64,000 nt of DNA from Planctomyces sp. SH-PL14 (GTDB lineage Bacteria > Planctomycetota > Planctomycetia > Planctomycetales > Planctomycetaceae). The notes under the pieces are model-generated. The model was not told the origin of the DNA. It ran no database searches and saw only the letters and a list, made by a program, of their open reading frames with translations. This document shows positions 22,513-29,869 of the stretch, one piece after another (position 1 is the stretch's first letter; the number at the start of each line of letters is the position of its first letter). A program made the translations under genes and the position numbers. The DNA lies in assembly GCF_001610835.1 (NCBI RefSeq), contig NZ_CP011270.1, positions 7,272,001-7,336,000 of the forward strand, written 5' to 3'.

Positions 22513-22914
22513 GTCCGACCGCGGATGGCGGCGGCGGTGTATTCGAACGTCGAGGCTCGGGGTGTCTCTCGCCGGAACGGCGCAGGGGGGTGAGAGTCTC
22601 GCGGCGCGTGACGGCCGGTGTTCCGCGGACCGCGCCGCATGGGCCGGGCTCGCGACGTCGACTCGCCCGCCGGAGTGCGGTTCTGATCGGGGAAACGGGC
22701 TCGATCGACCGGGCGAAACGCGAGGCGTCGGCTCCTTGGGAACGACCGTCCGGGCGACGATTCTGATGCCGTCGGTCCCGATTGATTTCGCGTCATCGCC
22801 GGAGTAGCCTGCACGGGGTCTTCCCTGCAAATGGACAGGGCCGGAATTTCCCCCGTCTTCTCCCCATCTCCGACGGCGCGATCTTCTTCGGTTCCCATTG
22901 TTTTGAAAGTGGAA
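22513..22914. other. Intergenic region, no gene seen
   Basis: About 400 bp between the hot-dog gene and the disordered-protein gene. Several short open frames are present on both strands, but none has a ribosome binding site or recognisable content. It probably carries the promoter of the disordered-protein gene. Confidence 0.4.
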
Positions 22915-24843
22915 ATGAGCACTCCGTCGAAGAAAGATCCCGATTCGCCCCTGAGTTCCCAGGCTGCGAATCACCTCGGCATTCACTTTGATCCCCAGGG
23001 GCCGATCGGGGATCCTTCGGACTTTGAAGGGCTCGACTTCGGCGACCTCGCTCCTCCTCCGGCTCCCGCCGCACCGGCCGCTTCGCGCGAGCCGGCGGTG
23101 ACGTCCGCTGCCGCTCCAGCCTCCGCTTCGTCGCCTGCGGACGACGATCTGTTCTTCGACGACGACTTCGGCGGCGGCCTGCTGGAAGACCGGTCGACTG
23201 CCCCTGCGTCGCCCGCTGTTTCGGCACCGGCCGCGTCCTTGAGCGAAGTGGACGACGACTTCGAAGCCGAGGAACCGGAGCCCGAGGCGCCCGCGATGGC
23301 GACCAAGGATGCCGGCGAGAAGGACGAATTCTGGGACGCCCTCGAAGGATGGGACTGGAACGCCTCGTCCGGTTCGGGTCGGGAATCCGCTCCGGAGCGG
23401 AGCGGTGGACGCTCTTCGTCCCGCGACTCGGACTCCCGCTCCTCGCGCCGACGCGAGGGGGGAGAGGATCGCGGACGGTCGCGGGGACGCTCGGATTCGG
23501 CCGGGGGAGAAGACCGTCCGCGCGAGTCGTCGCGGGGAGGTCGGGGAGCCCGTCCGGAGCGTCCGGCCCGCGAGCCGGCGCAGGAGTTCGAATTCGAGGC
23601 GCCCGTCGCGGAAGAACGCCCGTCGCGGCGTCGGCCCGAGGGAGCCCGTGCGGCTGAGCCTGCTCCCGCCCCTGCCCCGCCTCCGCAGGAGGACCGTCCG
23701 TCGGAAGGCCGCGGTCGCGGTCGTTCGTCCGGCGGACGCCGTTCGGAACGGTCTGCGGATCGGGAGCCGTCGGCTCCGCCGCGAGCGGAGCGCGAGGCGG
23801 CCCCGTCCCGGGAAGCCCCTCCGCCGCGGAAGAAGCGGCCCGCCGAGCCCGCGTTTGAATCCAAGGATGCGTGGGATGACGAAGACCTGTTCGATCAGGA
23901 TCTCGACTTCGCCGAAGAGGCCGAGCCGATCGCCGAAGCGGATGACGAAGAGTTCGGCCTGAGCGAATCGGAGCCTGAAGCTCCCGCTCCTGCCGCCGGC
24001 CGGCCGGAACGCGGCGGACGCCGTCCGTCGCGCGGTCGGGGTCGCGGCGAAGAGCGCGGCCGATCGGAAGACCGGGGCCGGTCCGAGGAACGTGGACGGA
24101 GCGGAGAAGAACGCGGTCGCTCGGAAGAACGCAGCCGAGGCGAGGATCGCGGACGGGGCGAAGAGCGCAGCCGCAGTGATGACCGCGGTCGTGGCGAAGT
24201 GCGTCCGCGGGCCGAAGAACGGTCACGCAGCGAAGAACGGCCCCGCAGTGAAGAGCGGCCCCGAGGCGAAGAGCGGCCTCGTGGAGAAGAACGCCCGCGC
24301 AGCGAGGACCGCGGCCGGGGTGAGGATCAGGAAGGGCGTCGGCCGCGTCGCGGGCGGCGCCGCCCGGACGAGGAGGCCTACGCTCCTCCCGCCGATGAAG
24401 CGGTTCCCGCTTCGGCCGAAGGGGCGGATGACTTTGGTGGTGGCCTGGACGAGGAAGAACGTCCCCGTTCCCGTCGTCCGGCACGCGGGGACGAATCGGG
24501 ATCGCGATCCCGGGGTTCGGCCCCCTCCGGCGAGCGGGCTCCGCGGCCGGCCGCTGATAGCGAGCGCGGTACCGAAAGGGATGCGGACCGTCTTGAACCG
24601 GCTCCTCAGCTGACGAACCGCGACGTTCCGACGTGGGAGCAGGCGATCTCGCTGCTCGTGCGCCGGATTCGGGAACCTCGCGGCGGAGGCCGGTCGTCCG
24701 GTGGTCCGCGTCGGGAAGGTTCCCGCCCCGAAGGTTCGGGCTCGGGCTCGGGCTCGGGCTCGGGACGGCCGCGTGGCCGGCGGGACGACGGTGGCCGGCG
24801 GTCGGACGATCGCGGCCGGCGTTCGGGCTCCGAAGTGGAATAG
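22915..24843 (+). CDS. Large intrinsically disordered Arg/Glu/Ser/Gly-rich protein
   Basis: 642 aa from ATG 22915. The first 130 residues are acidic and Ala/Pro-rich, with DDDLFFDDDFGGG and DFGDL motifs. The rest is dominated by R, S, G, E and D. Between about nucleotides 24020 and 24330 the protein is a run of short units of the type ERGRSEER, GRGEERSR and RPRSEERPRGEE. A compact, non-low-complexity motif, DVPTWEQAISLLVRRIREPR, stands near the C-terminus, followed by GSGSGSGSGS and an RGRR-rich tail. No enzyme domain is seen. RG/RS-rich composition suggests RNA binding or condensate formation, which is inference only. Confidence 0.7.
   Translation: MSTPSKKDPDSPLSSQAANHLGIHFDPQGPIGDPSDFEGLDFGDLAPPPAPAAPAASREPAVTSAAAPASASSPADDDLFFDDDFGGGLLEDRSTAPASPAVSAPAASLSEVDDDFEAEEPEPEAPAMATKDAGEKDEFWDALEGWDWNASSGSGRESAPERSGGRSSSRDSDSRSSRRREGGEDRGRSRGRSDSAGGEDRPRESSRGGRGARPERPAREPAQEFEFEAPVAEERPSRRRPEGARAAEPAPAPAPPPQEDRPSEGRGRGRSSGGRRSERSADREPSAPPRAEREAAPSREAPPPRKKRPAEPAFESKDAWDDEDLFDQDLDFAEEAEPIAEADDEEFGLSESEPEAPAPAAGRPERGGRRPSRGRGRGEERGRSEDRGRSEERGRSGEERGRSEERSRGEDRGRGEERSRSDDRGRGEVRPRAEERSRSEERPRSEERPRGEERPRGEERPRSEDRGRGEDQEGRRPRRGRRRPDEEAYAPPADEAVPASAEGADDFGGGLDEEERPRSRRPARGDESGSRSRGSAPSGERAPRPAADSERGTERDADRLEPAPQLTNRDVPTWEQAISLLVRRIREPRGGGRSSGGPRREGSRPEGSGSGSGSGSGRPRGRRDDGGRRSDDRGRRSGSEVE
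24736..24766 (+). repeat. Hexamer microsatellite in coding sequence
   Basis: About five tandem GGGCTC-type units near the end of the disordered-protein gene, encoding alternating Gly-Ser. In-frame slippage here would change linker length without breaking the gene. Confidence 0.85.
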
Positions 24844-25125: not shown

Positions 25126-25614
25126 TCAGCCGCAGGAGCCCTTGGTCCCTTCGGCGTTCTCTTCCACGTCGCACACCTGATTCTCGATCTCGGTGATCTT
25201 CTCAACGCGGCGCTGGTGGCGACCCCCTTCGAACTCGGTCTTGAGCCAAGTCTCGACGACGCGTCCCAGGAGGCGATCCCCCATCAGGTCGGCCGAGAGG
25301 CACATAACGTTGGCGTCGTTGTGCCGGCGGCAGATCTCCGCGGCGACGTCGTCGTGGCAGATGATGGCCCGCACGCCGCGAAACTTGTTCGCGGTGATGC
25401 ACATCCCCATCCCGGTCCCGCAGATCAGGATCCCGCGGTCCGCGGTCCCGCCGCCGACCATCCGCGACACCTTGGCCGCGTAGTCAGGATAGTCGACGCT
25501 TGCGGTCTCCGAGGGCCCGCAATCGATCGCCTCATGACCGAGCTCCACGAGCTGAGCCAGGATCTGGCTCTTGACGCGAACACCCCGGTGGTCACTGGCA
25601 ACGGCAACTTTCAT
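25126..25614 (-). CDS. rpiB: Ribose-5-phosphate isomerase B
   Basis: A 162-aa enzyme that interconverts ribose-5-phosphate and ribulose-5-phosphate in the pentose phosphate pathway. Family blocks are VAVASDHRGVRVK at the N-terminus, DYPDYA, the catalytic Cys in ILICGTGMGMCITANKF, and RRHNDANVMCLSADLMG. The C-terminus carries a Glu/Lys-rich tail beyond the usual end. Its ATG overlaps the upstream stop (TAATG), indicating translational coupling to the TsaC-like/phosphatase gene. The same three functions cluster in Bacillus (ywlC, ywlE, ywlF). Confidence 0.95.
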   Translation of the reverse strand: MKVAVASDHRGVRVKSQILAQLVELGHEAIDCGPSETASVDYPDYAAKVSRMVGGGTADRGILICGTGMGMCITANKFRGVRAIICHDDVAAEICRRHNDANVMCLSADLMGDRLLGRVVETWLKTEFEGGRHQRRVEKITEIENQVCDVEENAEGTKGSCG

Positions 25615-26753
25615 TATCGCGAGGCCTCTTCTTCTCTCTCCTGGATCAAGTGGTCCAGGAAGGCTTCCAGGGCCTGACGGATCTCCGCTCCGCAGGCCTC
25701 GTACACCGACATCCCCTGTCCGATCGGATCGCCGATGTCGCGCTGCGGAGAGAGCAGGCGCATCTTCGGACGGTGCTCCGGAAATTCATTATACAGCGTG
25801 TCGAGATGGGCGGCAGTCATCGCCACCACATAGTCGGTCTGAGCCAGAAGATCTTCCGTCACCGGCTGGCTGCTGTGGTCAGACAGATCAACGCTTGCCG
25901 ATCTCAGGATGGCCAGGGTCTCCGGGGCGGCGGCCATTCCGGTCACGGCCGAAACGCCGGCGGACTGCGCGAGGAACCCGTGGTCGGCGAGTTCGTCGAC
26001 GGTACAGCCCAGGCGATCCGCTGCCACGCGCCGGAAGAGCCCTTCGGCCATGGGAGAGCGGCAGGTGTTTCCGGTGCAGACGAACAGAATCATGAGGCTG
26101 CTGAGTCGGGACATCATGGAGGCGGGGACCACCCCTTCGCGGATGAGTCTCCAGCCCGCGGCCGTCAGATCGATGACGGTCGGCCCCTGTGGATGTCGCG
26201 GGGGACCGGAATCGTACACGGTTTCCAGGTCCTGGCCATGAATTCGTGCGACTTCCAGTCCGTCGGAATCGTTCCAGGTCCGGCCAGTCGGCAACCGGGC
26301 CGCGACCGTCAGAACCGGCGGAGCCATTCCTTCCGCGACGCGCCGCAGAAGAGGAAAGGCCGGGACGCAGATCGGCACGTCCGCCTCCGCCAAGAGCTTG
26401 CGCGTGGCGGTCGGAAAGGCGTGGAACGAGTGGCCGGCGACGGAGCCCGCCCGCACCACGACCGGCCCCGGCCAGCACCGCCGCAGGAGCCGCCCGGTCG
26501 AGCGGGGAAGGTGCGTCACGAAGTCCTGCAGGGATTCCTGCTGCGGAATCAGCAGGGCGAAGTCCTCGGCCGACGCCTCGGGCCGGGCGGCGATCAGCCG
26601 TTCGACCGCGTCGGCGGATGCGGCCGAGCAGGCGAGCAGGTACCGGGTCTCTGAAGGTAAGCCGACCAGCTGGCCGGCCGTCAGCGCAGCGGCGATGTCC
26701 TCGGCGAGTTCGCCGATTGCTGCCACGTGCCGAAGATCAATGACCTGTGTCAT
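25614..26753 (-). CDS. Fusion: TsaC/Sua5-like domain + low-molecular-weight (arginine-type) phosphatase
   Basis: 379 aa. Residues 1-210 resemble the YrdC/Sua5 fold: GQLVGLPSETRYLLAC matches the GxVVxFPTETVYGL start, and PTVIDLTAAGWRLIREGVV matches the late STVVD...ILRxG motif. The usual KxRP substrate motif is eroded (AARPEAS). Residues 221-379 form a low-molecular-weight protein phosphatase: P-loop VCTGNTCRSPMAE with Cys226 and Arg232, and acid motif DP at 342-343. Thr230 in the P-loop matches the residue that gives Bacillus YwlE its phosphoarginine specificity, where tyrosine phosphatases have Ile or Leu. The domains are separate adjacent genes (ywlC, ywlE) in Bacillus. An in-frame ATG (residue 213 or 214) could allow the phosphatase to be made alone. 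Confidence 0.85.
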   Translation of the reverse strand: MTQVIDLRHVAAIGELAEDIAAALTAGQLVGLPSETRYLLACSAASADAVERLIAARPEASAEDFALLIPQQESLQDFVTHLPRSTGRLLRRCWPGPVVVRAGSVAGHSFHAFPTATRKLLAEADVPICVPAFPLLRRVAEGMAPPVLTVAARLPTGRTWNDSDGLEVARIHGQDLETVYDSGPPRHPQGPTVIDLTAAGWRLIREGVVPASMMSRLSSLMILFVCTGNTCRSPMAEGLFRRVAADRLGCTVDELADHGFLAQSAGVSAVTGMAAAPETLAILRSASVDLSDHSSQPVTEDLLAQTDYVVAMTAAHLDTLYNEFPEHRPKMRLLSPQRDIGDPIGQGMSVYEACGAEIRQALEAFLDHLIQEREEEASR

Positions 26754-26986
26754 ACTGCCACATGGGCCCCCGCCCCCGCGGTCCGGACCACAAGGCCGGC
26801 CTGATCGGAGGGTTCAGCGAAAACACTACGGCACGAAATGCGGAATGTCACGCCCCGCCGAAGGAAACACGCTCCCGTTCGGATCAACAAACCGATATAT
26901 TTGAGCGATGGGCTTGGGAAAGTAGACAGGCAGGCGTGTGCCAAGCGTTGGCGCGGACGTCCACGAGCCCCCGGAAAGGCGAACCA

Positions 26987-28324
26987 ATGAAGAGCGGTGT
27001 TCTGTCTCGTCGAGCGGTCTTGCGTGGACTCGGAGCGGCGATGGCCCTTCCGTGGCTCGAGGCGATGGGACCCCGCAGCGCGTTTGCCGCCCCGGCGTCG
27101 AAGTCTCCGCTCCGGATGGCGTTCCTCTACGTTCCCAACGGGAAGCAGATGGACGCCTGGACGCCGGCGAAGACCGGCGCCCTGGAACTGACCAAGACGC
27201 TGGAGCCGTTGGCCGCGGTTCGGGAAAAGATCACGGTCATGACCGGCCTCGCGCAGCGGAAGGCCTTTGCGAACGGCGACGGCGGCGGAGACCATGCCCG
27301 CGCTCTCTCGACGTTCCTCACCGGGACGCAGGCCAAGAAAACCGACGGTGCGGACATCCGCGCCGGTATCTCGATCGACCAGATCGCCGCCCAGTCGGTC
27401 GGCAAGCATACGCGTTTCCCGTCGCTTGAAATCGGATGCGACGCGGGGGCCCAGTCGGGCAACTGCGATTCGGGTTACAGCTGCGCCTACTCGTCCAGCA
27501 TCTCCTGGCGGAGCCCGACGCAGCCGGTCCCGAAGGAGACGAATCCGCAGTACGTCTTCGAGCGGCTGTTCACGAACGGCCGCGTCGGCGAAACGACCGC
27601 CCAGCGGGCCCGGCGGCAGAAGTACCAGAAGAGCATCCTCGACTTCGTGCAGGAAGACGCCACCCGTCTCCAGACGCAGCTCGGGATGGCGGACCGCCGG
27701 AAGCTCGACGAGTACCTGTCGGCCGTGCGTGAGCTGGAGATCCGGATCGAGAAGGCGGGCAAGTCGCAGGGGGGGAACCTCGTCGATCGTCCCGCTCCGG
27801 TCGGGATTCCCGACTCGTTCGAGGAGCACATCCAGCTCCTTGGCGATCTGATGATCCTGGCCTTCCAGACCGACGTGACCCGCATCTCGACGTTCGTCTT
27901 CTCGAACGAGGGAAGCGGCCGCAGCTTCAGCTTCATCGGGGTTCCGGAGGGGCATCACGACCTCTCGCACCACGAGAGCAAGGAAGAGAAGCGGAACAAG
28001 CTCAAGCAGATCGACCTGTTCCACACGAAGCAGCTGGCCTACATCCTTGGGAAGATGGACGGCATCAAGGAAGCGGGCGGGACGATGCTCGACAACACGA
28101 TGCTGGTCTACGGCAGCGGTATTGGGGACGGCAATCGCCATAACCATGACGACCTGCCGATCGTCCTGGCCGGGCGTGCTGGTGGCCGTCTCAAGGGGGG
28201 CGAGCACGTCAAGTTCGGGAAGGAAGTCCCGCTGACGAATCTCTATCTGACGATGCTGGACTGGATGGGTGTCCCGTGCGAGAAGCTGGGTGACAGCACC
28301 GAGCGGCTCAAGGGAATGGCCTGA
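26987..28324 (+). CDS. DUF1552 family Tat-exported protein (unpaired)
   Basis: 445 aa from ATG 26987, preceded by GGAAAGG. The twin-arginine leader reads LSRRAVLRGLGAAMALPWLEA, cleaved near AFA-AP. DUF1552 blocks follow: LRMAFLYVPNGKQMDAWTP, ITVMTGLAQRKA, DHARALSTFLTGTQAKKT, SLEIGCDAGAQSGNCDSGYS, HHDLSHHESKEEKRNKL and YGSGIGDGNRHNHDDLPI. DUF1552 genes usually lie beside a DUF1592/DUF1588/PSD cytochrome-type gene; none is here. Function is unknown, though its His/Asp-rich blocks suggest a metal-binding hydrolase fold related to DUF1501. Confidence 0.9.
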   Translation: MKSGVLSRRAVLRGLGAAMALPWLEAMGPRSAFAAPASKSPLRMAFLYVPNGKQMDAWTPAKTGALELTKTLEPLAAVREKITVMTGLAQRKAFANGDGGGDHARALSTFLTGTQAKKTDGADIRAGISIDQIAAQSVGKHTRFPSLEIGCDAGAQSGNCDSGYSCAYSSSISWRSPTQPVPKETNPQYVFERLFTNGRVGETTAQRARRQKYQKSILDFVQEDATRLQTQLGMADRRKLDEYLSAVRELEIRIEKAGKSQGGNLVDRPAPVGIPDSFEEHIQLLGDLMILAFQTDVTRISTFVFSNEGSGRSFSFIGVPEGHHDLSHHESKEEKRNKLKQIDLFHTKQLAYILGKMDGIKEAGGTMLDNTMLVYGSGIGDGNRHNHDDLPIVLAGRAGGRLKGGEHVKFGKEVPLTNLYLTMLDWMGVPCEKLGDSTERLKGMA

Positions 28325-28402: not shown

Positions 28403-29869
28403 AACGCCGTTCGCGACTCTGTCTCGGAACTGGCGTTAACTGTGGGATTGCAAAAGACTTCGAGCCTCGTCATCGGTTGTGTTGTTCTACGACACAGGCC
28501 CGATGCACGGAGGCTCGAAGATGGCTTGGAAGCCACAGCGGCGATCGTATCGTCACGAATTCATTGAGGCGATCGCCACGGTCTTTCCCCCACAGTGGTT
28601 CAGCCGGTTCTCTTCGCACGGCAACACCGGCTGGACCCCGCTGAAGATCTTCTGGGTCTCCACCATCATGAGCTGGCAGCCCCAGGTGACCCTCCGCGAG
28701 CAGTTCGATGCCGCCTGCGACATCCTCCGCGAAGTCTTTCCCGCCTGGACCATCGGCGACTCGCTCTCCGGGTTCCTGGCCGCCCGCGTTCGTGGTCTCC
28801 CCCGGATGCGAGATCCGATCCTCCTGCGCCTGCGACAGTTCGTCGCCGAGCATCTGGACGACTGGCGAGTCCGGGGATGGGCGGTCTTCGGCGTCGATGG
28901 CTCCCGCTTCGAAGCCCCTCGCACGACGCCCAACGAACAGGCCTTGGGCTGCGCCGGCAAGGAGGGGACCACGCCGCAGGTCTTCCAGACGACACTCCTG
29001 CACATCGGAACCGGCTTGCCATGGGACTTCCGTCTGGGGCCGGGGACACAGAGCGAGCGGCGACAGCTGGACGACATGCGGGACAACCTGCCGCCCCGCT
29101 CCCTGCTGACCGCCGACGCCGGCTTCATCAGTTTTGAGCTGTGCCGCTGGCTCACCCGGAACCGGCACGACTTCGTCCTGCGGGTGGGAGGAAACATCCG
29201 GCTCCTGACCGGCCTGGACGGTCCTGACTTGGATTGGGCGGTCGAGACCGAAGGCCAGACGGTCTCGCTGTGGCCCACCCGCTGCCGCGACCAGCCGCCC
29301 GTCGTGTTGCGACTGATCGTCGTTCGCGACGATCAGAAACGACCGGTCTCGCTGGTCACGAACATCCACGACGAGAGGGCGCTGTCCGACGAGGACGCCG
29401 CCGAGATCTACCGGCTCCGCTGGGGCCTGGAGCTGCACTATCGCTCGCTCAAGCAGACGCTCTGCCATCAGACGCTGCGGAGCCGCACGCCGGAGGGCGC
29501 GCTGGCGGAGCAGACCTGGCATGTCCTGGCGAGTTGGCTACTGCAACTGCTGACGGCTCGGGAACTGATCGCCTCGGGATCGCATCCGGCGAACTGGTCT
29601 GCCGCCAAAGCTCGGGACGCCGTCCGCCGTCTGCTTCGTCGAGTCGTCCACGGCCGCCCCGTCCGCCGCATGCCGTCCTTGCGGGACCAGCTTTGTCAGG
29701 CCGTGGTGGACAGGGACGGTCGAGTCGGCCCGAAACAGATCCGCCGGTGGCCGAGACCGAAGCAGGACAGGCCGCCCGGCCCCCCGAAAATCCAACCGGC
29801 CACCCGAGAAGATCTCCAACAACTCCAACGACTTCGGACCACGTTACAAGCCCGATCATGAACAGCATT
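28403..29869 (+). mobile_element. IS4-family insertion sequence, 1,467 bp, intact
   Basis: Bounded by a perfect 11-bp direct repeat GGGTCTCACCC (28392-28402 and 29870-29880), a size typical of IS4-family target duplications. Imperfect terminal inverted repeats: the left end AACGCCGTTCGCGA and the reverse complement of the right end AATGCTGTTCATGA agree at 10 of 14 positions. A single full-length transposase fills the element. The target is hairpin H3 of a dispersed repeat copy, so the flanks can be rejoined with no missing base. Confidence 0.92.
28521..29861 (+). CDS. IS4-family DDE transposase
   Basis: 446 aa from ATG 28521, preceded by GGAGG at good spacing; ATG 28503 is a weaker alternative. 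The catalytic triad is visible: first Asp in VFGVDGSRFEAP, second Asp in LLTADAGFISFELC, and Glu in the IS4 signature YRLRWGLELHYRSLK, which fits Y-x2-R-x3-E-x6-K exactly. The C-terminal 80 residues are basic and Pro-rich. The frame is uninterrupted and the ends are intact, so the element may still be active. Confidence 0.94.
   Translation: MAWKPQRRSYRHEFIEAIATVFPPQWFSRFSSHGNTGWTPLKIFWVSTIMSWQPQVTLREQFDAACDILREVFPAWTIGDSLSGFLAARVRGLPRMRDPILLRLRQFVAEHLDDWRVRGWAVFGVDGSRFEAPRTTPNEQALGCAGKEGTTPQVFQTTLLHIGTGLPWDFRLGPGTQSERRQLDDMRDNLPPRSLLTADAGFISFELCRWLTRNRHDFVLRVGGNIRLLTGLDGPDLDWAVETEGQTVSLWPTRCRDQPPVVLRLIVVRDDQKRPVSLVTNIHDERALSDEDAAEIYRLRWGLELHYRSLKQTLCHQTLRSRTPEGALAEQTWHVLASWLLQLLTARELIASGSHPANWSAAKARDAVRRLLRRVVHGRPVRRMPSLRDQLCQAVVDRDGRVGPKQIRRWPRPKQDRPPGPPKIQPATREDLQQLQRLRTTLQARS

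Follow-up and report, generated by a model that had tools for sequence, protein, structure and literature searches.

The tRNA modification t6A is nearly universal, and its first step is carried out by the threonylcarbamoyl-AMP (TC-AMP) synthase TsaC. Work on protein-arginine phosphorylation has centered mainly on the Firmicutes. Bacillus subtilis encodes the protein-arginine kinase McsB, and its genes ywlC, ywlE and ywlF (rpiB) lie grouped together, so that a TsaC, the phosphoarginine phosphatase YwlE and RpiB are neighbors. YwlE counteracts McsB and shields the t6A enzyme TsaD from ClpCP, and the McsB/YwlE pair sets the stability of TsaD in this organism (PMC7546277). The catalytic P-loop of YwlE reads CTGNTCRS, and a Thr at the fifth position of such loops favors phosphoarginine while an Ile favors phosphotyrosine (PMC8001253, citing earlier work on YwlE); exchange of the Thr for Ile in PtpB raises the hydrolysis of pNPP (PMC8001253). 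Two other proteins are of relevance. YciO of Escherichia coli, a paralogue of TsaC whose active-site motifs are altered, has no TsaC function in vivo and synthesizes traces of TC-AMP in vitro (PMC12506659). The low-molecular-weight (LMW) phosphatase of Thermoanaerobacter tengcongensis (4egs) was deposited as RpiB, a name that suggests a phosphatase-RpiB fusion in which the same gene group is joined at the other joint.

The locus described herein, from Planctomyces sp. SH-PL14, brings the same three functions together. It differs from the B. subtilis group in that the first two are joined in one polypeptide, as they are in other planctomycetes, and in that the TsaC half is degenerate, with a Sua5 encoded elsewhere in the genome. 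It differs from 4egs in its fusion partner. Our search of non-subscription literature found no paper describing a TsaC-YwlE fusion and none describing McsB or YwlE in planctomycetes, although the architecture may be listed in domain databases.

Architecture of the fusion gene

The window is a 64,000-nucleotide stretch of the genome, which is 8.44 Mb in size and forms a single contig; its nearest named relatives belong to the Planctomycetaceae and to other Planctomycetota. On its minus strand, positions 25614-26753 form a single uninterrupted frame of 379 residues in which two Pfam domains score above their cut-offs. These are Sua5_yciO_yrdC (PF01300, residues 23-207, 26133-26687; 70 bits against a cut-off of 25.1) and LMWPc (PF01451, residues 222-366, 25656-26090; 95.5 bits against 23.2). 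It is followed on the same strand by rpiB (25126-25614), whose product of 162 residues matches PF02502 with 178.7 bits and the equivalog TIGR01120 with 173 bits (cut-off 138.7). The two genes meet in the sequence TAATG (25612-25616, minus strand), in which the final base of the TAA stop codon of the fusion gene also begins the ATG of rpiB, and they are likely to be translationally coupled. The preliminary description of this DNA had proposed a TsaC-like and an arginine-phosphatase-like domain in one polypeptide, with rpiB starting inside its stop codon, and both proposals agree with what we read here. An AlphaFold2 model of the fusion protein, built from a 52-sequence alignment, has a pLDDT of 94.9 and a pTM of 0.90. 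In Foldseek comparisons its N-terminal domain matches structures of Sua5/TsaC2 and of E. coli YciO (1k7j, the nearest single-domain structure by fold, TM-score 0.85). The C-terminal domain matches YwlE (0.86-0.89) and 4egs (0.90).

Distribution of the fusion in Planctomycetota

The full-length fusion is found in well over 100 of the 294 Planctomycetota genomes sampled. Among the roughly 150 best matches listed from a protein search of these genomes, most span both domains, and many families are represented. Homologues from well over 100 independent genomes show about 30-40% overall identity to the window fusion and, because the same fusion recurs in so many of them, we reject chance, an assembly error or a frameshift artefact as its origin. 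We examined 141 fusion loci, of which 137 were aligned and at least three have lost the N-terminal domain; rpiB lies 3' of the fusion on the same strand in 98 of the 141. A scan of GTDB representative genomes gave 80 loci, almost all labelled Planctomycetota, together with one from a metagenome-assembled genome labelled Candidatus Aerophobetes. The fusion in the latter (L265:3935-5008) has intact KxR and SxN motifs and is followed, in the place of rpiB, by a gene that we judge from its sequence to be deaminase-like.

Decay of the TsaC-like domain in genomes with a free Sua5

In the window fusion the KxRP site (residues 57-60, 26574-26585, minus strand), as located by alignment with the free Sua5 and with the fusions that are their genomes' only TsaC, reads RPEA. 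The SxN site (residues 151-153, 26295-26303, minus strand) reads AAR, so that the tetrad formed by the KxR and SxN positions is REAR in place of KRSN. The preliminary description had noticed the loss of much of the KxRP motif; that of SxN is an addition to it. The same genome encodes a free TsaC/Sua5 of 320 residues (C1:1979717-1980679) that has a Sua5_C domain and the motifs KNRP and PSAN. It scores 194.7 bits on the equivalog model TIGR00057 (cut-off 123.2), on which the window fusion scores 64 bits and the fusions of its family 64-70 bits. The domain thus shares the TsaC/Sua5 fold and yet falls below the cut-off and is devoid of the tetrad, whereas five relatives that are the sole TsaC of their genomes pass with 141-153 bits; intermediate scores are seen in G278 (134 bits) and G222 (111 bits). 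The earlier suggestion that the TsaC part might no longer make TC-AMP is upheld in its main idea by the lost motifs and by the intact second copy, which shows that the fusion is not the only tsaC homologue of the genome. We conclude that the domain has very probably ceased to act as a TC-AMP synthase, and a regulatory role for it, as also suggested there, is possible.

The state of the window fusion is part of a wider pattern, which also goes beyond the preliminary description: the fusion spans the phylum, most lineages have kept its TsaC domain intact, and decay of this domain has occurred repeatedly where there is a free Sua5. The tetrad was read in 137 fusions. A search with PF01300 defined 78 genomes that, HypF aside, have no TsaC/Sua5 other than the fusion, any further matches being weak. 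K, S and N are all retained in 77 of these sole-copy fusions and two of the three in the remaining one, the KxRP Lys being 99% and the S and N of SxN 100% conserved. In the 59 genomes with a free Sua5 or TsaC, 52 fusions retain none or one of these three residues and seven retain all three, with no state in between. A Sua5_C domain, and therefore a free Sua5, is found in 105 of the 294 genomes. Among fusions from genomes without it, 68 of 79 have the complete KRSN, and the search for a hidden second TsaC in these 79 genomes found only one, in G183 (204 bits on PF01300; all others are of HypF length or below 30 bits). In keeping with the rule of decay in the presence of a free copy, G183 alone among the 79 has a fusion from which every residue of the tetrad is gone.

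The association of Sua5 presence with decay is significant by Fisher's test on the four-residue score (p = 2.6e-27). By parsimony on the tree of the phosphatase domain, in which many branches are weakly supported, Sua5 status changes 18 times and decay 17 times. Since an independent-pairs test on strongly supported branches yielded only about four pairs and so had no power, Sua5 status was permuted within families. The resulting p value of 5e-5 shows that the association is not simply that of one clade. A free Sua5 coexists with an intact fused TsaC domain in five genomes (G206, G278, G232, G023 and G256, at loci L039, L026, L167, L094 and L118, respectively); these cases may be recent gains of Sua5 or, in binned genomes, contamination. 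Judging from its sole-copy status and intact motifs, the fusion must be bifunctional where it is the cell's only TsaC.

The phosphatase half and the McsB system

The C-terminal domain has the C-X5-R-S P-loop and the Asp-Pro general acid of LMW phosphatases. The P-loop (residues 226-233, 26055-26078, minus strand) reads CTGNTCRS in the translated frame, in agreement with the phosphoarginine-type Thr described earlier, and D342-P343 (25725-25730, minus strand) is followed by Ile. The P-loop residues C, G, N, C, R and S and the D-P pair are invariant in all 137 fusions, and the Thr at position 5 is present in 129. The residue after D-P is Ile in 94 fusions and Phe or Tyr in 25. Known YwlE-type members have an aromatic, though not necessarily essential, residue at this site (Phe120 in YwlE, D-P-Y in PtpB), so the Ile of the window protein could mean that its substrate specificity differs from that of B. 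subtilis YwlE. By sequence the nearest solved structures are 4egs and then B. subtilis YwlE, at 31-34% identity, and the domain shares the P-loop Thr and the D-P loop with YwlE and PtpB. This likeness is one of sequence and fold, and the window domain differs from both in sitting behind a TsaC domain. The other three PF01451 proteins of the genome have the P-loops VENSNRS, TGNSCRS (beside an ArsR-like gene) and TGNYYRS, making the fusion the only CTGNTCRS phosphatase. Based on these features, the C-terminal half is most likely a phosphoarginine phosphatase.

The preliminary description would have been weakened had the genome encoded no arginine kinase, but an McsB is encoded at C1:819638-820744 (L008:7639-8745) and scores 438.3 bits on NF002194 (cut-off 385), with 8wtb and 6tv6 as its best solved relatives (E about 7e-87). 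The gene lies directly 3' of another tRNA-modification gene, mnmE/trmE, with no mcsA adjoining. ClpC (853 residues, with Clp_N and UVR domains), an McsA-like protein (176 residues, with CxxC pairs and UVR), TsaD and a TsaB-like protein are likewise encoded, and the McsA-like gene (C1:1976049-1976579) is located near the free Sua5. It should be noted that McsB is present in 288 of the 294 Planctomycetota genomes whether the fusion is intact or not, and for that reason its co-occurrence is weak evidence for phosphoarginine as the substrate. A control row with PF00217 had no match even in B. subtilis and so was uninformative.

Proposed history and alternative explanations

We now put forward an account of the fusion that we regard as probable. 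An ancestral planctomycete would have joined TsaC to a YwlE-type phosphatase ahead of rpiB, and across most of the phylum the product would still be the only TsaC and be bifunctional. In the lineage of the window a free-standing Sua5 would now supply TC-AMP, and the fused TsaC domain, having lost its nucleotide- and threonine-binding motifs, has very probably lost catalysis. The C-terminal half would remain an active phosphatase, most likely acting on phosphoarginine and opposing McsB, and would thereby decide the set of proteins that receive the tag for ClpC. Rather than disintegrating as a relic, the dead domain would have stayed folded and would serve the phosphatase as a scaffold or for interactions.

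The main alternative for the N-terminal half is that it is a slowly decaying relic without a role and that the phosphatase alone matters. Two genomes that group with that of the window with a support of 94 (G176 and G199), as well as G198 of another family, have dropped the domain and kept the phosphatase, in two cases still ahead of rpiB. Tblastn detected no remnant of the domain upstream of these three phosphatase genes. The domain is therefore not indispensable, and the window sits in the middle of a series from active, through catalytically dead but folded, to gone. Between genera the decayed domain also diverges faster than the phosphatase, as in G018 and G099, which are 40% identical in the former and 71% in the latter. 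Against a relic stand its confidently predicted fold, its constant length and freedom from stops and frameshifts within genera, and its low dN/dS. In related genera, as the window's own genus was sampled by one genome, dN/dS is mostly 0.04-0.14 where computable (within g3 and g9 and in a close g2 pair), compared with about 0.02-0.09 in the phosphatase domain and, for TsaC domains that are intact, 0.02-0.05 in family f2. This argues for continuing constraint, with the decayed domains of these genera under purifying selection. In addition, the window's family has kept the scaffold positions G27, P33, Y38, W94-P95-G96, P146 and G207, and D77, R92, R186 and R216 are better conserved there than in the active relatives. 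We thus consider a relic rather unlikely. That the retained fold, with its changed pocket and its closeness to YciO, serves as a sensor of a small ligand such as a nucleotide or threonine that tunes the phosphatase, or has a YciO-like role with RNA, appears to us distinctly improbable. The tetrad states vary from genus to genus even within the family, and such non-uniform pocket residues argue against one conserved new ligand. YciO itself is a stand-alone protein, whereas the fused copies of Planctomycetota are mostly intact, and no rnm linkage was seen for the fusion. The YciO precedent of trace synthesis, together with the retained fold, could be taken to mean that TC-AMP is still made by a modified active site, and "dead" may accordingly mean "very weak" for the window domain. 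However, in the window's family 12 positions whose conservation among the sole-copy fusions is 90% or more, including K57, S151, N153, S191 and R205, are lost or no longer dominant and the genome has an intact Sua5, and we give genuine synthesis by this domain very little credence.

With respect to the C-terminal half, the LMW phosphatase fold and the replacement of the aromatic residue after D-P by Ile would be compatible with an enzyme that acts on phosphotyrosine rather than on phosphoarginine. This seems unlikely to us given that the P-loop has Thr and not Ile, that the sequence resembles YwlE and the T. tengcongensis domain more closely than Wzb or PtpA, and that nearly all genomes sampled from the phylum encode McsB.

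The joining of two functions in one polypeptide across a phylum suggests that a link between McsB/YwlE and t6A is old and general. The TsaC-YwlE fusion fits such a link as described in B. subtilis, and communication between its two halves is hypothetical. As a bolder and decidedly tentative proposal, which we think has a modest chance of being correct, the covalent connection would place t6A capacity and McsB/ClpC tagging under joint control throughout the phylum and, where a spare Sua5 is present, the TsaC half would have become a dead controlling domain of the phosphatase. The family constitutes a natural experiment, in which the death of one half can be followed in many separate lineages wherever another enzyme can stand in for it. 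Automated labels such as "L-threonylcarbamoyladenylate synthase" will be mistaken in one half of the family and will conceal the phosphatase in all of its members.

Further features of the locus and its relatives

In three planctomycete lineages (L129, L137 and L184) a stand-alone YwlE-type phosphatase occupies the usual place of the fusion, and the TsaC half has left no detectable remnant. In the window, a DUF1552 (HXXSHH) gene at 26747-28324 is adjoined by a transposase gene (DDE_Tnp_1) at 28479-29861. On the other side of the fusion and rpiB, positions 22831-24843 contain a frame of 670 residues in which Arg, Glu, Ser, Gly and Pro are extremely abundant, with repeated ERGRSEER-like blocks and without a Pfam match.
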